DNA of 60,156 nt from IMG/VR virus record IMGVR_UViG_3300032605_000016, positions 1-60,156 of that record. One strand, written 5' to 3'. The position numbers were made by a program, and so were the translations under genes. Of this stretch, positions 18,895 to 48,653 are shown in pieces. The notes beneath the pieces were generated by a model. The model made no database searches and was not told the origin of the DNA. It was given only the letters and a program-made list of their open reading frames with translations. The DNA is from a virus. Within the stretch, counting starts at the first letter, position 1; every line of letters starts with the position of its first letter.

Positions 18895-19997
18895 TGAGCT
18901 ATCTATTCACAAGCGAATCAGTATCAGAAGGACATCCAGACAAAGTAGCAGATGCTATTAGTGATGCTATTTTAGATTTAGTAATGAGTAAAGAAGACAC
19001 TAGTCTTCGTTGTGCTTGTGAAACATTGGTAACTACAGATACAGTAATTGTTGCTGGAGAATATAAAGGTGTATTACATTCAGAAGAAGTAGAATCAGCT
19101 ATTCGTCGAGTCATCAAAGATATTGGTTACGAGCAGTCAGGATTTGATTGGCGTACTGTTAAAATTATTAACTTGCTACATGGCCAGTCCGCAGATATTG
19201 CGTTAGGCACAGACAACTTTGGCGCAGGCGACCAAGGATTAATGTTTGGATATGCTTGTAACGAAACAGAAAACTTTATGCCTTCGGCAATTTACTGGAG
19301 TCATAGAATTGTAGAAGGGTTAACACAAGTTCGTAAACAAGGTGTACTTAACTATCTTGGACCAGATGCTAAGAGTCAAGTTACTTTTGAATACAGCGAT
19401 GATGCCAAACCTATTCGTATTGCTAAAGTAGTTTGTTCTACACAACATAATGCCGATGTTGATATCGAAACTGTTCGTAAAGACGTTGGCAATATTATTC
19501 GTAATATATTACCTACAGAATTTGTAGATGAAAAGACAGAATTTTATATTAACCCAACAGGGCGTTTTGTAGTAGGTGGTCCTGATGGTGACACAGGATT
19601 AACAGGTCGTAAGATTATTGTAGACACATACGGTGGATATAGCCCACACGGCGGTGGTGCGTTTAGTGGCAAGGATCCTACTAAGGTAGACCGTAGCGCC
19701 GCTTACATGGCTCGCTATTTGGCTAAGAATATTGTTGCCGCTGGTCGTGCTAACTGGGCTACTGTACAAATTAGTTATGCTATTGGGGTAGCACAACCTA
19801 TGAGTTTTTATATAGAGTCAGACGGTGATAGTCGTGCGTTAACAGAGTGGATTTATAATAATGTAGATTTAACTCCGTTAGGTATTATTAATCGCTTTAA
19901 GCTGTTTAGACCTATATACAGTAAGACTACTAACTATGGTCACTTTGGCAAAAAAGATTTGCCATGGGAAGAAATAAATTTGTTTAAGGATCAGTAA
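18894..19997 (+). CDS. metK: S-adenosylmethionine synthetase
   Basis: Makes SAM from methionine and ATP. 367 residues, close to E. coli MetK (384), so it looks complete. Signatures: SVSEGHPDKVADAISDA (ATP/methionine loop), GTDNFGAGDQGLMFGYA, GGPDGDTGLTGRKII and the GGGAFSGKDPTKVDRS loop. AAAAGGAAATTA precedes the ATG. A phage copy is unusual; the SAM demand here comes from QueE and at least two methyltransferase-like proteins. SAM also inhibits some host defences as a substrate-level competitor, but nothing here shows that role. Confidence 0.95.
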   Translation: MSYLFTSESVSEGHPDKVADAISDAILDLVMSKEDTSLRCACETLVTTDTVIVAGEYKGVLHSEEVESAIRRVIKDIGYEQSGFDWRTVKIINLLHGQSADIALGTDNFGAGDQGLMFGYACNETENFMPSAIYWSHRIVEGLTQVRKQGVLNYLGPDAKSQVTFEYSDDAKPIRIAKVVCSTQHNADVDIETVRKDVGNIIRNILPTEFVDEKTEFYINPTGRFVVGGPDGDTGLTGRKIIVDTYGGYSPHGGGAFSGKDPTKVDRSAAYMARYLAKNIVAAGRANWATVQISYAIGVAQPMSFYIESDGDSRALTEWIYNNVDLTPLGIINRFKLFRPIYSKTTNYGHFGKKDLPWEEINLFKDQ

Positions 19998-25564: not shown

Positions 25565-25578
25565 CTAAATAATATACT
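25565..25578 (+). promoter_or_regulatory. T4-late-like TAAATA element, leaderless
   Basis: CTAAATA at 25565-25571, then 7 nt to the GIY-YIG ATG at 25579. No ribosome binding site is present. Confidence 0.5.
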
Positions 25579-26181
25579 ATGTCGAAACCGTTTAAACCTA
25601 CCTGGTTGTACATTAAGCAACATAATACTACCGGTCTAAAATACTTTGGAAAAACTATACGGGATCCTAACAAATATTTAGGATCTGGCGTACACTGGCG
25701 GGCACATCTTAATAAACACGGTCTAGATGTTACTACCGTTTGGTGTCAGCTATTCGATAATAAAGAAACATTAGTCGAATACGCTTTAAAATTTTCTACA
25801 GAAAACAAAATTGTCGAGTCAGCAGAATGGGCTAACATTAAACCCGAAGATGGATTAATGGGAGGTAGTTACGGTACTGTAAAAGAGTCCACTAGACAAA
25901 AAATTAGAGAAAATAGTAAAAACTATAGACATACAGAGTCTAGTAAAGAAAAGATTCGAACTGCTAGAGCAAAACAAGCGCCTACTATGTTAGGAAAAAA
26001 GCATAGTGACGAAACAAAACAAAAAATAAAAGATGCTAGAGCTAAACAAATAATGGTTCCACGAAGTGAGGAATTCAAACAAAAAATATCGTTGCTCCAC
26101 AAAGGTAAAAAGCGTTCTCCAGAAACTTGTAAAAAAATATCTGAAGCACGAAAAGAACTATTCAAAAGGAATTCTAAGTGA
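25579..26181 (+). CDS. GIY-YIG homing endonuclease
   Basis: 200 residues. TWLYIKQHNTTGLKYFGKT is the catalytic core and GSGVHWRAHLNKHG follows. Three NUMOD3-type repeats (KEKIRTARAKQ, KKHSDETKQKIKDARAKQ and RSPETCKKISEARKE) make up the DNA-binding tail. Third enzyme of this kind within 4 kb. Its stop overlaps the next gene's GTG start, so it may have landed between two coupled genes. Confidence 0.85.
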   Translation: MSKPFKPTWLYIKQHNTTGLKYFGKTIRDPNKYLGSGVHWRAHLNKHGLDVTTVWCQLFDNKETLVEYALKFSTENKIVESAEWANIKPEDGLMGGSYGTVKESTRQKIRENSKNYRHTESSKEKIRTARAKQAPTMLGKKHSDETKQKIKDARAKQIMVPRSEEFKQKISLLHKGKKRSPETCKKISEARKELFKRNSK

Positions 26182-26974: not shown

Positions 26975-26988
26975 TACTAAATAGATTT
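26975..26988 (+). promoter_or_regulatory. T4-late-like TACTAAATA element, leaderless
   Basis: TACTAAATA at 26975-26983 and 5 nt (GATTT) before ATG 26989. No Shine-Dalgarno sequence. Confidence 0.5.
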
Positions 26989-27232: not shown

Positions 27233-27436
27233 ATGGCAACAGGTAAAGTAAAGTGGTTTAATGATGCAAAAGGGTTTGGATTTATTACCCCCGATGCTGG
27301 TGGTGAGGAATTGTTTGCACATTTTTCCGCAATTAGCACAAATGGTTTTAAGAGTTTAAAAGAGAATCAAGCGGTAACATTCGATGTAGTGGCAGGCCCT
27401 AAAGGCAAGCAAGCATCAAATATTCTTCCGCTGTAA
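27233..27436 (+). CDS. Cold-shock domain protein
   Basis: 67 residues, full length for a CspA-type protein. [15 protein letters not shown] holds RNP1 (KGFGFI) and ELFAHFSAI holds RNP2-like residues. Binds single-stranded RNA/DNA and melts mRNA structure. It is next to the tmRNA on the same presumed transcript, so both would act on translation during infection. Confidence 0.95.
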
Positions 27437-27780
27437 AGAATTGTTGTAATTCCTTCGTAGTGAAGGCGCTGTGGACCCGGGTTCGATTCCCGGCATCTCC
27501 ACCGAAGCATATTACCGAACCGAGTTATCGGTAGCGAGGCCAAAAGCTGTAGTATGTTTCAGTGGGGATGACAAGGTTTCGACATGGTGAGATAATGAAA
27601 GAGGCAACACAGTAGGCGATGACTGTAAATCAAGCGAAAAACTTAAATGCAAACGCATCTAAAGGCGAAGTAACTGTTTCAGGTAAGGGAATTCGTTTCT
27701 CTGCTCGTACAGCACAACGCCAAACATTAGCAGTTTAATCACTGCTTTGCGGAGTTATCCGTCGAAACAGAAAATAACAG
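27436..27780 (+). ncRNA. ssrA: Circularly permuted (two-piece) tmRNA
   Basis: The acceptor piece comes first: a T-arm CCGGG-TTCGATT-CCCGG ends in CATCTCC (27494-27500) plus ACC, with the last A not encoded. After a ~60-nt intervening segment with hairpin ACCGA/TCGGT, the coding piece starts at GGGGATG (27564-27570). GGGGATG pairs over all 7 bp with CATCTCC (one G-U). The resume codon GCA (27649) is followed by AAC and a 29-codon frame ending LAV and TAA at 27736-27738. The stop lies in the loop of hairpin AGCAGT/ACTGCT, as in helix 5 of known tmRNAs. Rescues stalled ribosomes. Ends of the mature pieces are estimates. Confidence 0.9.
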
Positions 27781-27806
27781 ATAGGGGCTTCGACCCCTAT
27801 TCTTTT
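27781..27806 (+). terminator. Intrinsic terminator after tmRNA
   Basis: ATAGGGG and CCCCTAT stem with loop CTTCGA, followed by TCTTTT. Confidence 0.85.
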
Positions 27807-27926
27807 GACTTCATTATATGCGTATATTAAACTTAAAAATATGCCAAAACCTAGCAATTTTTGCAGGCCAACGCAAAAAAACAATAAATATTTGTTCAGT
27901 AGTATAAACATAAAGGAACTATTAGT

Positions 27927-28426: not shown

Positions 28427-28436
28427 TAAATATAGA
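28427..28436 (+). promoter_or_regulatory. T4-late-like TAAATA element, leaderless
   Basis: GTAAATA ending at 28432, 4 nt (TAGA) before ATG 28437, directly after the terminator. Confidence 0.55.
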
Positions 28437-28937
28437 ATGAAGATAGTAATCACTGGACATACTGGTTTAGTAGGAAGCAAAATAGTTGAATTATTCCCCA
28501 ATGAAGAAGTTATCGGGTTAAGTCGTAGTAACGGATACGATTTAACTACAAAGTACGACGAGTGCTTGTCTATAATGAAATCAGCGGACATAGTATTCAA
28601 TAATGCCTATTCAGGTACTATACAAGCAAATATCATAAAAGATTTAAAAGATTCAAAAGTAACTTTAATTACTATTGGAAGTATTGCTGGATACTATAGC
28701 ACCAATCCATATCAAGTTAATAAAAAAATAATACACGAAACATATCAATATCATAAACCATTTTATCCAGAAAGATGTTTATTGTTGATACCAGGTTTTC
28801 TTGAAAATAATGCTAGGTGCGTTGAATTAGGTCGTACAGTCATTGATGTTAATCAAGTTATTAACGGTATTAAATATTTTTTAGATAATAAAAGAGTCAC
28901 TATGATAGAATTTGATAATACTAGTAGGAAATTATAA
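28437..28937 (+). CDS. NAD(P)-binding SDR-like protein, short
   Basis: 166 residues. IVITGHTGLVGSKIVELF is the GxxGxxG cofactor loop, IVFNNAYSG is the second strand end, LITIGSIAGYYSTNPYQVNKK supplies Ser and Y-x3-K. It is shorter than epimerases and lacks the sugar-binding C-terminal domain. ATG overlaps the next gene start by one base, so it heads the operon of two oxygenase-like genes. Confidence 0.75.
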   Translation: MKIVITGHTGLVGSKIVELFPNEEVIGLSRSNGYDLTTKYDECLSIMKSADIVFNNAYSGTIQANIIKDLKDSKVTLITIGSIAGYYSTNPYQVNKKIIHETYQYHKPFYPERCLLLIPGFLENNARCVELGRTVIDVNQVINGIKYFLDNKRVTMIEFDNTSRKL

Positions 28938-29584
28938 TGCTGTTATATCATAAAACAAATTTTGATTTCTCACAAGAAGCTAAAGATTGGTTACTTAACC
29001 GATATAAAGATCACTTCAAATTAAATTTCTATCATAATTATGATTGGATTCAAAATCAACTACAACATGAATGGCGAGCATCTATTGCTGGAGAAGAATT
29101 ATTGTCTTACCTTTCTCAATATAATTGCGATACATCTAATCTGATCATAACTGCTCATCTGGCAAATTTAACAATACCATATTATAGTCGCCCGCACGTT
29201 GACGCCGAACAATTATACGGACCTGCTAAAGGTAAAATAACAGTAACTTCAAAATTTAATATAATAGTGCTTGGTAATCCAGAAGATCCTATGCTTTGGT
29301 GGACTAACTTTCACCATACAGATAAACGCTTGTACTATAGTAATGTTTTAAATACACGTACTAATCAAGAATTTAGTAGTTTATCTATGCCAGGACACAC
29401 TAATGAAGAAAAAATGGAGTATCTAGGTCCTGCTACAGATACAGCATCAAATTTACTAACTCCTAGCGCATTTGTACGCACAGATTATATTCATACTATA
29501 AAATTAAGTCCTGGACCAAGATTGGTAATTACTGTGCCTTTCGATAAAAGTATAGAAGAGTTAATCAATGTTACTATTCCATAA
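28937..29584 (+). CDS. 2OG-Fe(II) oxygenase-like protein, type A copy 1
   Basis: 215 residues. RPHVDAEQ (about 94-101) gives the HxD iron pair; a distal histidine lies in IHTIKLSPGPRLVITV, whose Arg fits the 2-oxoglutarate site. FNIIVLGNPEDPMLWWTNF lies between. It shares MLLYHKTNFDFSQEAKDW with the copies at 29568 and 46077. The predicted double-stranded beta-helix is inferred from the HxD...H...R order. Substrate unknown. Confidence 0.7.
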   Translation: MLLYHKTNFDFSQEAKDWLLNRYKDHFKLNFYHNYDWIQNQLQHEWRASIAGEELLSYLSQYNCDTSNLIITAHLANLTIPYYSRPHVDAEQLYGPAKGKITVTSKFNIIVLGNPEDPMLWWTNFHHTDKRLYYSNVLNTRTNQEFSSLSMPGHTNEEKMEYLGPATDTASNLLTPSAFVRTDYIHTIKLSPGPRLVITVPFDKSIEELINVTIP

Positions 29585-30182
29585 AACAGATTTTGATTTT
29601 TCGCAGGAAGCTAAAGATTGGATACTTAATCGATATAAAAATCATTTTAATGAAAATTTTTATCATAATTTAGATTGGGATCAAAGAAAGTTACAGCACG
29701 AATGGCGTGAAGTAAGTGCTGGACAAGAATTATTAAATTATTTGTCGCAATATAATTGTGATACATCCAATCTAATCATAACCGCACATTTAGCTAATTT
29801 AGAAAATCAAGGTTATGGAAGACCCCATGTGGATAACGAAAACCATAAAATTTTAAAAAGTAGATTTAATATATTAATAAAAGGTAATCCAGAAGATCCT
29901 ATGCATTGGTGGACCGATTTTCATCATACTGATAAAAGACTATACTCGATTACTCAAGTAAGTACTCGAACTGGATTACCTTTTACTGGGCTAACTATGC
30001 CAGGAACAACAGTAGCAGAAAAAATGGAATATTTAGGCCCTGCTACGGCTGCAGAATCAAATTTACTAACTCCTAGCGCATTTGTACGCACAGACTATGT
30101 GCATACCGTACATTTGAGCCCAGGACCGAGATTAGTAATTACAGTGGGGTTCGAAAAATCTATAGAAGATCTAATCAATTAA
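29568..30182 (+). CDS. 2OG-Fe(II) oxygenase-like protein, type A copy 2
   Basis: 204 residues, a tandem paralogue of the gene before and overlapping it by 17 nt. RPHVDNEN and VHTVHLSPGPRLVITV preserve the HxD...H...R set. Differences are spread along the protein, so it is an older duplication, not a copy error. EWREVSAGQELLNYL and NCDTSNLIITAHLANL are shared with copy 1. Confidence 0.7.
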   Translation: MLLFHKTDFDFSQEAKDWILNRYKNHFNENFYHNLDWDQRKLQHEWREVSAGQELLNYLSQYNCDTSNLIITAHLANLENQGYGRPHVDNENHKILKSRFNILIKGNPEDPMHWWTDFHHTDKRLYSITQVSTRTGLPFTGLTMPGTTVAEKMEYLGPATAAESNLLTPSAFVRTDYVHTVHLSPGPRLVITVGFEKSIEDLIN

Positions 30183-41476: not shown

Positions 41477-41490
41477 CTAAATAGAGTACA
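41477..41490 (+). promoter_or_regulatory. T4-late-like CTAAATA element, leaderless
   Basis: CTAAATA 41477-41483, 7 nt before the queC ATG at 41491. It begins 4 nt after the tRNA-Leu CCA. Confidence 0.5.
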
Positions 41491-42117
41491 ATGAATATTA
41501 CTTGCGGACCAAAAGACGACCAACGCACTATATCAATTACTCTTCCTAAAAAGAAATCTAAAATAGGAGTATTAGTTAGCGGCGGCACAGACAGCGCAAT
41601 CTTATATTACTTGCTATTATTAGAAAACAAACTAAGAGGTAATGTACACGAAATACTGCCTATCTCTATAATGCGTAAAGAAGGATCTAGATATTGTAGT
41701 AGCTTAGTTGTTGGACACATCAATCCGCTATTTCAATTGCCATTCCAAGATCCACAGATAGTTGGCGACAATACTCTCCCAGAAGAACAACAAGTAAAAT
41801 CGGCAGTAGACGAAGCTCTTACATTAGGGTTTAATATAGTATATGCTGGCGTGATAGAACAGTTGCCACAACATATGGTTAATTGGGAGCCAATACCTAG
41901 CAGAGAAACCGCTAGATTTAAAACCCCATTTCAGAAAATTAATAAAAGTCATATCATAGATATGATATGTAAACTTAATCAACAAGTATTATTTTATATT
42001 ACTCATAGTTGTGCCGATGAAAAATATCAAGTAGGCAGATGTAATGTTTGTAACGGTTGTACTGAAAGAGCGTGGGGCTTTGCTCAACTTGATTTAACTG
42101 ACCCTGGTACTATATAA
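41491..42117 (+). CDS. queC: QueC-like preQ0 synthase
   Basis: Last step to preQ0, ATP-dependent conversion of CDG. 208 residues. The PP-loop is VLVSGGTDSAILYY (about 28-41; the family has SGGxDS). A C-terminal zinc site runs from C171 in SCADEKYQVGRC through CNVCNGCTERAWGF, spacing Cys-x9-Cys-x2-Cys-x2-Cys, against x8 in E. coli. The middle is diverged, so a related nitrile or amide-forming PP-loop enzyme is possible. Its stop overlaps the convergent sulfotransferase gene by 24 nt. It is far from folE, queD and queE and under a late-type element. Confidence 0.8.
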   Translation: MNITCGPKDDQRTISITLPKKKSKIGVLVSGGTDSAILYYLLLLENKLRGNVHEILPISIMRKEGSRYCSSLVVGHINPLFQLPFQDPQIVGDNTLPEEQQVKSAVDEALTLGFNIVYAGVIEQLPQHMVNWEPIPSRETARFKTPFQKINKSHIIDMICKLNQQVLFYITHSCADEKYQVGRCNVCNGCTERAWGFAQLDLTDPGTI

Positions 42118-42690
42118 CTTTTTTATTACATGAAGAAGCAACGGGTAGTTAAGCGGTAACGGAGTTCTTTTAGTTGGCGATTTAAATTCTTCAAAATCTT
42201 CGTAATATAATTCTAAGTCGGCAGAAATCTTACTGATAATCATGTTATCAAATTCAACACACTCAATACTTTTATTAACTCTATCTATATTAATTTCAAT
42301 ATTATGTGAGGCTAAATTATTACAAGTGTTATCATCAACATCCTTATAATCCCATAAATCTCTTTCATTTGCTACATAATGACTTGCTGTTTGTTCTATA
42401 ATATCTTTACGAGTTATTTTAATTTTGAATACTTCGTTAGAAAACATTTTAGCAATAACATGAGATGGATAGACATTTAATGAGGTGCCCATTAATTTTA
42501 AAATATAATCATCATTGCCACTGTCGAATCTATCCATAAAATTTTTCATTTCGTCAACAAAAAAATTAGGTTCGTTATAATATTTAAGATTAGGATAAAG
42601 ACTTTCCAAATGATGCCCTAGCGCAGTACTACCAGTTCTAGGACTAGCAAATATAATAATAGGTTTTTTAGTAGCATTAATATTAATCAT
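42094..42690 (-). CDS. Sulfotransferase-like protein
   Basis: 198 residues. IIIFASPRTGSTALGHHLE carries the 5'-phosphosulfate loop of PAPS-dependent sulfotransferases near the N-terminus. A YYNEPNFF segment follows and KITRKDIIEQTASHYVA resembles the region with the 3'-phosphate Arg/Ser. It is cytosolic. Translated from the same transcript as the oxygenase-like gene at 43211 (4-nt overlap), so the two may act on one substrate. Target unknown. Confidence 0.7.
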   Translation of the reverse strand: MININATKKPIIIFASPRTGSTALGHHLESLYPNLKYYNEPNFFVDEMKNFMDRFDSGNDDYILKLMGTSLNVYPSHVIAKMFSNEVFKIKITRKDIIEQTASHYVANERDLWDYKDVDDNTCNNLASHNIEINIDRVNKSIECVEFDNMIISKISADLELYYEDFEEFKSPTKRTPLPLNYPLLLHVIKKLYSTRVS

Positions 42691-43211
42691 ATAAACAAAT
42701 CTTGAAATTTATCAATTGCTTCTTGCCAAGTTATATTTTTACTATAGCATCGTAAACTAAAAGCGTACCTTCCGTTATATCCCGAAGGACGATGTGGAAC
42801 CGACGCATCTGTTAAGTATGCTCCCGGCATAGTTTTATAAACTTTAATTGGTTCTACTTTGGCAAAACATTCACTTCGCTTACTACCTATATCATCATAT
42901 TCTGCTGGGTGCTGATCCACATCTTCGGGTCTCCAGTATTCCATAGTACCGTATCCGTTGTATATCCAATTAATGCCCCATACGCCAGGTCCGTCAATGT
43001 GTATTATTCCTTGATAATTATTTTTATAGAAAAAGTTAACAAAATCCCATTCAATACCACGCCATGATAACCATTCGGGTTTAACTAGATCTTTGGGATG
43101 GTATTGTTTGTACAATGTTTTGTCTTTGCCTATTAGTAATTCTTTCTTTCCAAAATCTGTAAGAATTTCATCTAATGGTGGCAAATCCAATTTATACATA
43201 AATTCAGTCAT
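42687..43211 (-). CDS. 2OG-Fe(II) oxygenase-like protein
   Basis: 174 residues. GIIHIDGPGVWGINWIYNG gives HxD, and SVPHRPSGYNGRYAFSLRCY the distal His and Arg. It shares the INW(I/V)Y-G-GTM(E/Y)(Y/W)W middle with the copies at 43768 and 47362. Its ATG is 4 nt after a minus-strand TAATAAATA, so it should be leaderless. First gene of a two-gene unit with the sulfotransferase. Confidence 0.72.
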   Translation of the reverse strand: MTEFMYKLDLPPLDEILTDFGKKELLIGKDKTLYKQYHPKDLVKPEWLSWRGIEWDFVNFFYKNNYQGIIHIDGPGVWGINWIYNGYGTMEYWRPEDVDQHPAEYDDIGSKRSECFAKVEPIKVYKTMPGAYLTDASVPHRPSGYNGRYAFSLRCYSKNITWQEAIDKFQDLFI

Positions 43212-43240
43212 GAACTATTTATTAGGTAATAAATACTGCT
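43212..43240. promoter_or_regulatory. Back-to-back late-type promoters (pair 1)
   Basis: Plus strand TAATAAATA at 43227-43235, 5 nt before ATG 43241. Minus strand TAATAAATA at 43224-43216, 4 nt before the minus ATG at 43211. The two copies are an inverted repeat with a 2-nt centre, and no ribosome binding site exists on either side. Confidence 0.6.
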
Positions 43241-43813
43241 ATGGAATTATACAAATTTTTAACAATAGATAATCAAGAACTTATATCAAATAAGTTATAC
43301 GATTATGTAGTTAACCATACAACAATACTTGAAGACAAATACGATTGGAATACGCTTAATCTAGAAGAGGTGTTGTCTTTTGTTCCTGAGTTAATAGATT
43401 CTTGTGCTAAATTAGTTAATTGTCCCATTAAAATGATTTCTATAATACACAGAACGCCAGGTGACGATGGCAAAATTCATATTGATCAAGGTCCTGCCAA
43501 ATATAGACTGTTAATGCCTGTTAAAAATTGCCAAGGTAGTTATACAAAGTTCTATGCCTTAAACGGTAATCAAGTAGAAGAACGATTCAATCCCAACGGT
43601 AATAGTTTTTTAACTATATCCGCAGTTAATCCAATGCCAGAAATTGGTTCTATTGAATTAATTCAACCTGTTGTGTTTAATTCAAAAGTACCGCATGGAG
43701 TTTATACTAATCCAAACTTAACTGAGCCAAGATTAAGTGTTACTATTGGTTTTGGTGATTACCCGATTCATTTAGTTTTAATGAATTCAGAAAATACAGT
43801 TACAGCTTCTTGA
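43241..43813 (+). CDS. 2OG-Fe(II) oxygenase-like protein
   Basis: 190 residues. GKIHIDQGPAKYRLLMPVKN (HxD, about 78-80) and SKVPHGVYTNPNLTEPRLSV (distal His and Arg). Its closest relative here is the product at 44324. The 3' end overlaps the convergent oxygenase gene at 43768 by 46 nt, so their mRNAs are complementary there. No ribosome site. Confidence 0.72.
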   Translation: MELYKFLTIDNQELISNKLYDYVVNHTTILEDKYDWNTLNLEEVLSFVPELIDSCAKLVNCPIKMISIIHRTPGDDGKIHIDQGPAKYRLLMPVKNCQGSYTKFYALNGNQVEERFNPNGNSFLTISAVNPMPEIGSIELIQPVVFNSKVPHGVYTNPNLTEPRLSVTIGFGDYPIHLVLMNSENTVTAS

Positions 43814-44331
43814 AAAGTTAATCTTTCTTTAGTACTGATTGTTTCAAATACCAGACTTATACAAAATCTTTCAGTATCACTATTAACTACTCTGTGAGGA
43901 CATCCTACTTGTACTAAACTAGGTTGTCCTACTTTTTGTGAATGTACTAACTCTACTTCTGGTTCATTATAATATAAAGCGTAAGATTTAATAGCTGTAG
44001 TATTAAGAACTGTGGGCGTATAATTTTTGTTTGTTTTGTACCAATACATTGTGCCGTTGCCATAAACCCAATTTAATTTAGCATAGTCACCTGCTACTTC
44101 TGTATCACTATGTATATTCCCGCCACCATAAGGTTGTCTATAAAAAATTTCAACTAATCTTACAGCTAACCCCAGCTTATTTAAAAATTCTACTAGCTCA
44201 ACACTTAGGTCACTAATATTAATTTGAAAATGTCCTGTTAGTTCGTAATTTTGTTTTAAAAATTCAACAGGAGATAGTTCTGATTTGAACAGTGGTAAAT
44301 CTAGGCTAAGATCAACACAATAATTATTCAT
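43768..44331 (-). CDS. 2OG-Fe(II) oxygenase-like protein
   Basis: 187 residues. GGNIHSDTEVAGDYAKLNWV (HxD) and GCPHRVVNSDTERFCISLVF (His, Arg). Similar to the copies at 42687 and 47362. Third gene of a minus-strand operon beginning at 45438, coupled by an 8-nt overlap. Confidence 0.72.
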   Translation of the reverse strand: MNNYCVDLSLDLPLFKSELSPVEFLKQNYELTGHFQINISDLSVELVEFLNKLGLAVRLVEIFYRQPYGGGNIHSDTEVAGDYAKLNWVYGNGTMYWYKTNKNYTPTVLNTTAIKSYALYYNEPEVELVHSQKVGQPSLVQVGCPHRVVNSDTERFCISLVFETISTKERLTFQEAVTVFSEFIKTK

Positions 44332-44863
44332 ATAATAGATATTCTATATCTTCGACAAACCCCATTGTAAAAGATATGCGTGGATTATTTGGATTATTAC
44401 TCACTACTTGATGCGGTTGATCATTTCTAAATATCAAAGGTTTATCAAGATAATATTGATCAACATGAGTACATTTAGATGGATCTAATTTCAATAACGG
44501 GATACCATTAGGTTGTAAAACTTTTTCAGGTGCCGCGCTAGTAGTAAAAAACCTAGTTTCGGTATTTTCACAATTTAATACTGGTATGATTATTCTACAA
44601 TTAGAATTTATGTCGTGGTCTATGTGTAAAGTTCCGGTAGCATAATCGCTAACAAAAAATGCCGCATATCTTAATGTAATGTTTAAAGGAGCTAGCATTT
44701 CGCTTAATTCAGGCACATCTTTTAAAAGGTCAGTTAAGTCAACTGATTTCCAAGACGAAGTTCTTTGGTCCACTAAAAATAGTTGACTGTGTTTGTTTAT
44801 GTAATCGTTTAATTTTGCGGAAACTGTTTCAAAATTTAAATCTAAGTATTTGTAATATTTCAT
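44324..44863 (-). CDS. 2OG-Fe(II) oxygenase-like protein
   Basis: 179 residues. GTLHIDHDINSNCRIIIPVL (HxD) and DQPHQVVSNNPNNPRISFTM (His, Arg). The pattern HIDxxxxxxRxxxPVxNC is shared with 43241. Middle gene of the minus operon. Confidence 0.72.
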   Translation of the reverse strand: MKYYKYLDLNFETVSAKLNDYINKHSQLFLVDQRTSSWKSVDLTDLLKDVPELSEMLAPLNITLRYAAFFVSDYATGTLHIDHDINSNCRIIIPVLNCENTETRFFTTSAAPEKVLQPNGIPLLKLDPSKCTHVDQYYLDKPLIFRNDQPHQVVSNNPNNPRISFTMGFVEDIEYLLYE

Positions 44864-45438
44864 CTTAGTGTAATAGCATCAATGGGTGGCAGTACAGGAT
44901 CAGTATCTAATGTTTCCCATGCCCAGGGCATTAATCTAATGCTAATACCAATCGCTGGACTATCACTAGTATTGCGTAAAGCATGGAAAGTACCAATATC
45001 ACTTAAAAATGGTTTGTCACAAACAACGCTTTCAATTTCCTTAGCATACTTATAATGTATCATAGGAACTGTTTGCCAGTTTTCTGATTCTCCGTAGTAA
45101 AATATTTTTGAAGGATCGGCAGGTTCAAACCAAGACCATATTAAATTCTCACAATTCTTCAAAGGTAAGAATATACATCTGTGTAGTTTTCCTGGATCTT
45201 TAGTTTCTTTGGGTTTGTCTGAATGTATGTTTATAGCTTTGTTGGGCGGAAAGTACACTAACATAATTCTTCGTCTATCAATTTTAGACACATTAACTTT
45301 TAATAATTCTAAAATTTTTTGTTCAGTTTCTTTGTTTATAGGAACCACTTGTTCGCGATCCTTATTTTGTATTGTAATAATAGATAAGATTTCTTCAATT
45401 GGTGCCGAATCCCAATTGATTAATTTATAGTGGTCCAT
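44860..45438 (-). CDS. 2OG-Fe(II) oxygenase-like protein
   Basis: 192 residues. AINIHSDKPKETKDPGKLHR (HxD) and GTFHALRNTSDSPAIGISIR (distal His; Arg is displaced to the end of the strand). IFLPLKNCENLIWSWFEP links it to 44324. First gene of the minus operon, with a minus-strand TATAAATA 5 nt before its ATG. Confidence 0.7.
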   Translation of the reverse strand: MDHYKLINWDSAPIEEILSIITIQNKDREQVVPINKETEQKILELLKVNVSKIDRRRIMLVYFPPNKAINIHSDKPKETKDPGKLHRCIFLPLKNCENLIWSWFEPADPSKIFYYGESENWQTVPMIHYKYAKEIESVVCDKPFLSDIGTFHALRNTSDSPAIGISIRLMPWAWETLDTDPVLPPIDAITLR

Positions 45439-45462
45439 AAAAATATTTATATAAATATCACC
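45439..45462. promoter_or_regulatory. Palindromic bidirectional late-type promoter (pair 2)
   Basis: TATTTATATAAATA at 45444-45457 is a perfect palindrome. It supplies TATAAATA on the plus strand, 5 nt (TCACC) before ATG 45463, and TATAAATA on the minus strand, 5 nt before the minus ATG at 45438. Exact match to the T4 late consensus on both strands. Confidence 0.7.
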
Positions 45463-46080
45463 ATGCCAAATGATAACTTACTCTTTGCTAGTGTGAATTT
45501 AGTTGCTCTAGATCAAAAAGAGGCGGCTGAACAAATTTTAAACATTCCAGACAGATATAGTTTTTGGGACGACTATAGACATACCAAAATGATTCCTTTA
45601 ATGAGCAAAGGTGGCATGATAGCGTCAAATAGTTTGCCGGGAGAATTTAATTGGAACGCCCATACTCCAAAACTTATTAGCGATTGGTTTGATAATGTAG
45701 TATTTCCGTGGATGGGCATGAAGTCTAGAGTTATGGCATTAATTACGCAACCTGGAGTAGCTAACTACGAACACATAGATTGTGATCCACACGAGCTTAA
45801 TACCAAACAGCACAAATTTAGAATTATATTACAAGGGCGCACTGATACTTTATATTTTATAACCAAAGATGGTAACAAGTACGCTCCAAGTGCAGAAGGT
45901 CCTTTTCTAATGGACGGTGGCTGGGCTCATGGTATGGTTAATACTGCCGACGAAGTTAAGGTTACATTAGCAGTCGGTGCTCCGTGGACCGGAAACGAAC
46001 AATATAATAATATCGAAATACTAATGAATCGTAATGATTACGAAATGCCCAAAGACCTTACCCCTTATTGGAAAAAATGA
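45463..46080 (+). CDS. 2OG-Fe(II) oxygenase-like protein
   Basis: 205 residues from ATG 45463; an in-frame GTG at 45430 would place the start upstream of the promoter and is rejected. YEHIDCDPHELNTKQHKFRI (HxD) and GGWAHGMVNTADEVKVTLAV (distal His; lysine where Arg is expected). Coupled to the next oxygenase-like gene. Confidence 0.68.
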   Translation: MPNDNLLFASVNLVALDQKEAAEQILNIPDRYSFWDDYRHTKMIPLMSKGGMIASNSLPGEFNWNAHTPKLISDWFDNVVFPWMGMKSRVMALITQPGVANYEHIDCDPHELNTKQHKFRIILQGRTDTLYFITKDGNKYAPSAEGPFLMDGGWAHGMVNTADEVKVTLAVGAPWTGNEQYNNIEILMNRNDYEMPKDLTPYWKK

Positions 46081-46709
46081 CTTTCTTTCACAAAACAGAT
46101 TTTGCTTTTTCTGAAACTGCTAGACAGTGGATATTGGATCGATACGAAGAAAGATTCAATCGAAAATTCTTTCACGACTTAGATGTTACACAGTACGAAT
46201 ATCAAAACGAGTGGCAAAATAGTTTAGCAGGGCAAGAATTAAAACAGTTTTTATCTAAATATAACTGCGACACAAGTTACTATGGCATAAATGTATTTGT
46301 TAGCAATATGCCTTATGCTATTAAAAGTAATCCACATATGGACGCAAAGTTCAGCAAGGGTAATGCTTACAAAATTAAATCTCGATTTAATGTAATGGTT
46401 CAAGGTAATCCCCAAGACCCAATGGTTTGGTGGGGCAATATGGAATACGGCGATTCTCGACTAGTTGATTGGAAATTTCATAGTATTACCGGACAAGAGT
46501 ATGTAAGCAAAGCAATACCAGGATCCAATCCAGAAGAGCGGTGGGAATATCTAAAAGAACCTACATTATCCGTTCCAAATTTATTAACTCCTAGTGCCTT
46601 TGTAAAAACCGATTGTGCCCATGCTGTAGTATTAAGCGAAGGGCCCAGATTAATTGTTACAGTAGCAATAGACAAATCGGTAGACGAAATCATCAAACCG
46701 CTTGACTAA
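46077..46709 (+). CDS. 2OG-Fe(II) oxygenase-like protein, type A copy 3
   Basis: 210 residues from ATG 46077, chosen because MTFFHKTDFAFSETARQW aligns with the starts of the copies at 28937 and 29568. NPHMDAKFSK (HxD), then AHAVVLSEGPRLIVTVAIDK (His, Arg). NLLTPSAFVKTD is also shared. It is 16 kb from its paralogues. Confidence 0.7.
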   Translation: MTFFHKTDFAFSETARQWILDRYEERFNRKFFHDLDVTQYEYQNEWQNSLAGQELKQFLSKYNCDTSYYGINVFVSNMPYAIKSNPHMDAKFSKGNAYKIKSRFNVMVQGNPQDPMVWWGNMEYGDSRLVDWKFHSITGQEYVSKAIPGSNPEERWEYLKEPTLSVPNLLTPSAFVKTDCAHAVVLSEGPRLIVTVAIDKSVDEIIKPLD

Positions 46710-47349: not shown

Positions 47350-47361
47350 CTTAAATATAAG
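47350..47361 (+). promoter_or_regulatory. T4-late-like CTTAAATA element, leaderless
   Basis: CTTAAATA 47350-47357, 4 nt before ATG 47362, immediately after the tRNA. Confidence 0.5.
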
Positions 47362-48598: not shown

Positions 48599-48653
48599 AA
48601 AAAATTTTAAATATTACAGGTAGAACATAAATAAAAGTAAGGAGTGATATACC

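Follow-up and report, generated by a model that had tools for sequence, protein, structure and literature searches.

Back-to-back putative T4-type late promoters between divergent oxygenase-like genes of a lake virus

Two symmetric elements and the genes that flank them

The window, by which we mean the whole stretch of 60,156 nt analysed here (IMG/VR virus record IMGVR_UViG_3300032605_000016), derives from a lake virus and corresponds to a 133-kb contig, G002, with 100% identity over 51.8 kb. This contig carries T4-like gp20, gp21, gp23, gp6, gp46 and gp47 and encodes the gp55 late sigma factor (phrog_12791), of which the related contig G004 also holds a copy (4.5e-72). When the G004 capsid was used as the query, the nearest cultured capsids were those of the T4-like jumbo phages Vibrio 2.275.O, Phosso, PA5oct and Serratia BF (62-67% identity), while a DNA search for the locus directly in cultured phages gave no match. 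The virus encodes a permuted (two-piece) tmRNA of the betaproteobacterial type at 27401-27829 (RF01850, RF04321), which suggests that the host is betaproteobacterial. ARAGORN gave 31 hits between 26871 and 48598, namely 30 tRNA genes and the tmRNA; some of these have homing-endonuclease-like HNH genes in their vicinity or between them.

Two short symmetric elements, here termed A and B, lie between divergent genes of this window:

42687..43211, minus strand: oxygenase-like protein, 174 aa (HID...H...R, motif read in sequence); divergent partner in element B
43216..43224, minus strand: putative late-promoter box TAATAAATA of element B, 4 nt to ATG 43211
43227..43235, plus strand: putative late-promoter box TAATAAATA of element B, 5 nt to ATG 43241
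43241..43813, plus strand: oxygenase-like protein, 190 aa (HID...H...R, motif read in sequence); element B
43768..44331, minus strand: oxygenase-like protein, 187 aa; downstream in the minus-strand run begun by element A
44324..44863, minus strand: oxygenase-like protein, 179 aa; downstream in the same run
44860..45438, minus strand: oxygenase-like protein, 192 aa (HSD...H...R); divergent partner in element A and first of three minus-strand genes
45444..45451, minus strand: putative late-promoter box TATAAATA of element A; predicted +1 at 45438 (A of ATG)
45450..45457, plus strand: putative late-promoter box TATAAATA of element A, at predicted -13..-6; predicted +1 at 45463 (A of ATG)
45463..46080, plus strand: predicted 2OG-Fe(II) oxygenase-fold protein, 205 aa; no Shine-Dalgarno, begins 5 nt past the box

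Both elements can be read directly in the sequence. In element A (45444-45457), TATTTATATAAATA, two 8-bp boxes share a 2-bp overlap and together form a perfect 14-bp palindrome. Its plus-strand copy of TATAAATA (45450-45457) is followed by TCACC and the ATG at 45463, and its minus-strand copy (45451-45444) by TTTTT and the ATG at 45438, giving a spacer of 5 nt on either side and predicted starts that are 25 bp apart. Element B (43216-43235) is TATTTATTA-GG-TAATAAATA, with 9-bp inverted arms around a 2-nt centre and predicted starts 30 bp apart. The preliminary description had reported the palindrome with TATAAATA on both strands, 5 nt from a divergent ATG in each direction, and two outward-facing copies of TAATAAATA with a 2-nt centre, 4 and 5 nt from their ATGs; both readings are exact.

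All four ATGs that flank the elements open ORFs, of 174-205 aa. The predicted structure of the 45463 protein displays a 2OG-Fe(II) oxygenase fold, and a Foldseek search with this model matched non-heme hydroxylases, AlkB-type proteins and prolyl hydroxylases at a probability of 1.00. An invariant HxD with a downstream H is present in this protein, and similar HxD...H...R motifs were recognised by eye in the other ORFs around the two elements; Pfam and PHROGs searches of the oxygenase-like proteins returned no significant match. The oxygenase label given earlier to these genes is upheld by the predicted fold of the 45463 protein and the motifs of its neighbours. Elsewhere in the window (28937-30182), a tandem pair of genes, about 73% identical to each other, resembles the protein encoded at 46077-46709.

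The box itself is scarce. Only two copies of TATAAATA were found in the window against about 10 expected, both inside element A, and ATAAATA occurs nine times against 33 expected, a nearly fourfold depletion such as one would expect if misplaced copies do harm. The box is depleted genome-wide and on both strands. Single boxes nevertheless stand ahead of other genes of the window, and one box with a conventional leader represents a contrasting class:

26978..26983, plus strand: single late-type box TAAATA, 5 nt before ATG 26989
28427..28432, plus strand: single late-type box TAAATA, 4 nt before ATG 28437
41478..41483, plus strand: single late-type box CTAAATA, 7 nt before ATG 41491; TAAATA-N4-ACx-ATG class
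47352..47357, plus strand: single late-type box TAAATA, 4 nt before ATG 47362 (oxygenase-like gene)
48628..48633, plus strand: late-type box with a conventional leader, 20 nt to ATG 48654, AAGGAG Shine-Dalgarno between

Only a minority of divergent neighbours, 13 of 58, have a box on each side.

Spacing between box and start codon

Late boxes of T4 occupy positions -13 to -6, and phage Aeh1 uses the variant CTAAATA (PMC1524935); a spacer of 5 nt therefore sets the predicted +1 on the A of the ATG. With start codons chosen by homologue alignment and open frames, the TAAATA-to-ATG distance (d) in seven related contigs peaks at 5 (50), 7 (25) and 4 nt (17), with a second hump at 16-24 nt. An unbiased hexamer scan of these seven relatives placed TAAATA at d=5 first, above the Shine-Dalgarno words (50 seen, 0.71 expected), although neighbouring hexamer peaks depend on one another, since permutations of the box share words. 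For the virus of the window taken by itself, TAAATA at d=5 ranks second among positional hexamers, and 16% of all TAAATA copies in the related genomes are located 4-7 nt before an ATG.

Among the relatives, none of the 104 genes with a box at 3-8 nt carries a Shine-Dalgarno, a zero that is partly forced by lack of room, as against 44 of the 63 genes with a box at 16-28 nt. In the close class the box thus occupies the ribosome-binding region and takes the place of the Shine-Dalgarno, as would suit a non-Shine-Dalgarno translation-initiation signal, i.e., an A/U-rich ribosome-binding element, rather than a promoter. Such a signal would not be expected, however, to recur in identical form at 16-28 nt together with a Shine-Dalgarno in those 44 genes, nor ahead of gp6 in three genomes, where it is followed by a leader. 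Furthermore, the box coincides with that established for late promoters in T4 relatives, and its depletion extends to both strands of the genome. The d=7 class, TAAATA-N4-A-C-T-ATG, moreover calls for an additional A five bases past the box (92%; the following C, 84%), as expected of a start site, and would fit initiation five or six bases past the box, with a leader of 3 nt. A translation signal is, in our estimation, improbable. The conserved ACT of the d=7 class can be seen, for example, at 25566-25581 and 41478-41493 of the window.

Since TAAATA resembles TATAAT, and since bacteria commonly have bidirectional sigma-70 promoters (PMC12825309), the boxes might instead be host sigma-70 -10 elements, that is, early promoters placed back to back like those of E. 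coli. Yet TAAATA boxes showed no enrichment of a -35 element (5% versus 4% in shuffled sequence), and the same genomes hold clear TTGACA-N17-TATAAT promoters at another spacing, d=6, and ahead of gp55 and gp44. A sigma-70 -10 identity was rejected on the lack of a -35, and we rate this explanation marginally below the translation signal. For the genuine TTGAC-N17-TATAAT promoters of G002, G003, G004 and G006, the distance to the ATG peaks at 6 nt (14 genes), which would be the leaderless register of sigma-70, and some non-late genes look leaderless too. Hence, two promoter types with different box-to-start distances would both set their predicted +1 at the start codon.

The identity of the boxes as late promoters, as first proposed, is favoured by the presence of gp55 in the same virus, by the lack of a -35 and by boxes ahead of late genes in the relatives, where gp20 is preceded by a box at d=7 and gp6 by one with a leader. 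No late box was found directly upstream of gp23 (major capsid) or gp21 (protease) in G004 and G002; the operon logic is incomplete in this respect, and these two genes may be read through from upstream in the freshwater relatives. BLAST searches with KVP40 gp33 and HTVC008M gp45 gave no match in the contigs of the relatives, which are incomplete. Close spacing was not enriched in PA5oct, BF, Vibrio 2.275.O, Phosso, 121Q or phiM12.

Conserved boxes around a drifting centre

Back-to-back pairs are present in G002, G003, G004, G005, G006 and G008 as well as in HTVC008M. Against a block of G003 that is 71% identical to the window, identity reaches 93-95% in the boxes but 64-75% in the flanking ORFs. 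The genes of pair A keep their divergent boxes across the relatives, with centres of 2, 4, 6 or 22 bp, and overall the centres vary between 2, 3, 4, 6, 8 and 22 bp, while each box keeps the distance to its own ATG. Comparison of homologous loci thus reveals conserved boxes but a centre whose length is not kept (2-22 bp).

This drift bears on the possibility that the palindrome is an operator, at which a dimeric repressor or activator would control both divergent genes from promoters located elsewhere. The perfect 14-bp dyad of element A, the 9-bp arms of element B and the symmetric centres of several relatives would all suit such a site. However, a rigid dimer site would not tolerate a centre that differs in length for the same pair, as it does for pair A and for one structural pair (2, 3 and 4 bp), whereas the box-to-ATG distance is retained; in addition, most d=5 TAAATA boxes are single and unpaired. 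A rigid dimer operator was rejected because the gap between the boxes drifts among relatives, and an operator of any kind appears to us as unlikely as the sigma-70 reading. Because the inter-box spacing drifts while each box-to-ATG distance stays fixed, the elements are better described as two promoters than as one dyad operator. On the sequence evidence, the palindrome is a by-product of two identical boxes that face apart. The symmetry that was emphasised at the outset is real, but is not in itself the functional unit.

A search of IMG/VR with CAT-N5-TATTTA-Ng-TAAATA-N5-ATG retrieved 101 stretches at g = 2, 74 at g = 3 and 82 at g = 4, compared with eight for a reversed-motif control; considerably more than a hundred environmental phage sequences besides this one thus share the layout. 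Both ATGs open ORFs in 82/101, 50/75 and 65/82 of the matches (197/258), against 1/8 in the control. After clustering, 179 elements represent 63 gene-pair types and 104 protein families, including 23 cases of a head closure protein opposite a DNA end protector and 25 of a virion structural protein opposite a head-tail adaptor. In the latter pair the centre measures 2, 3 or 4 bp, and protein identity across these spacing classes reaches 91%. The first dozen pairs (2, 4, 6, 8, 22 and 24 bp) had given the impression that only even spacings were used, a notion rejected on the 74 stretches with a 3-bp gap.

An AT-rich coincidence in short intergenic regions is conceivable in a region of 32-34% GC and for a box of merely 8 bp, but has a negligible probability given that the window has two copies of the layout CAT-N3-7-TATTTA-N0-10-TAAATA-N3-7-ATG where Markov simulation predicts 0.006 per window, that the reversed control yielded 8 stretches rather than 74-101, and that the boxes are conserved above the level of the ORFs. 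The preliminary description had considered such symmetry unlikely to be due to chance, and the simulation bears this out.

We consider it probable (approximately 0.8) that each element consists of two independent T4-type (gp55) late promoters placed back to back and that each promoter gives rise to a leaderless mRNA. The elements combine an 8-bp box or close variant, the lack of a -35 and a virus-encoded gp55 with boxes on both strands that overlap or abut, each ahead of a gene; the Shine-Dalgarno is absent, and the spacing sets the predicted +1 on the start codon. The leaderless, divergent use proposed earlier is likewise favoured by the sharp 5-nt peak, the missing Shine-Dalgarno and the conservation of boxes around a drifting centre. 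We infer that gp55, on the host RNA polymerase, would recognise (T/A)ATAAATA or CTAAATA at -13/-12 to -6 without a -35. With the box 4-5 nt before the ATG, transcription would start on the A of the AUG or no more than one base away from it, and both divergent genes would be made as leaderless mRNAs that are translated without Shine-Dalgarno pairing. The gp55-polymerase could bind either box, presumably in one orientation at a time at element A because its 8-bp boxes overlap by 2 bp, and late output would there be shared between the two oxygenase operons.

Another conserved back-to-back element is found at G004:90680-90710, with equivalents in G002, G005, G006 and G008, and reads TATTTAATTAAATA in some of them. 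Its genes had been taken for an oxygenase and a neck protein, an assignment that was rejected as the 276-277-aa partner is a fatty-acid desaturase (PF00487) opposite an unrelated 191-aa protein.

Relation to known promoter systems

The box resembles that of the T4 late promoters (gp55/gp33/gp45; PMC2988020, PMC1524935), which likewise use TATAAATA, or CTAAATA in Aeh1, without a -35, and the likeness extends to the gp55 homologue of the same virus and to the boxes ahead of gp20 and gp6 in its relatives. In T4, KVP40 and S-PM2, by contrast, no TAAATA was found at 4-8 nt before an ATG; their boxes are spread over roughly 19-34 nt, which leaves room for a leader, whereas the distance here is 4-7 nt and the mRNAs are predicted to be leaderless or nearly so. 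Unlike this virus, these three phages have no back-to-back pairs by the same test. Bacterial and phage leaderless mRNAs offer a further parallel, similarly having the AUG at the 5' end, as predicted here, and no Shine-Dalgarno.

The bidirectional sigma-70 promoters of E. coli described by Warman, Grainger and colleagues (PMC12825309) are also short symmetric DNA read both ways, and binding in one orientation excludes the other. The elements described here differ from them in sigma factor and box, in their predicted starts (25 and 30 bp apart, versus 18, 10 or 23) and in that both transcripts would begin at the start codons of protein genes.

Our search of the open literature, extending to few subscription journals, found neither leaderless placement as a genome-wide habit of T4-type late genes nor common back-to-back use. 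While the box as such is already known from T4 late promoters, its leaderless placement genome-wide and its common use in back-to-back pairs appear to be new. T4-like late transcription is a textbook system, and the same box would here be placed such that promoter and start codon merge, raising the question as to why late phage proteins would come from leaderless mRNAs. With slightly better than even odds, a large set of aquatic T4-like phages may conduct late and some early expression through leaderless mRNAs (sigma-70 at 6 nt, gp55 at 5 nt), with divergent pairs served by mutually exclusive back-to-back elements of ~30 bp that balance late output. The spacing would allow late genes to be called in uncultured phages, including host-derived ones such as oxygenases.

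In a published study, pelagimyophages were searched for late promoters without success (PMC7029224), and the close spacing would provide a direct way to annotate such promoters and to fix start codons. The Pelagibacter phage HTVC008M, Mosig and Melnitz share TAAATA 5 nt before the ATG, in 11, 6 and 3 genes, respectively, d=5 being the peak in HTVC008M; all three are cultured, and the claim is testable now. HTVC008M, an ocean phage, is only distantly related (gp23 37%, gp55 about 30% identity), and its d=5 boxes precede gp2, gp4, a tail-tube/baseplate gene, gp25 and gp3 at their annotated starts. Its back-to-back pair is located between gp2 and gp4, at 18914-18945.
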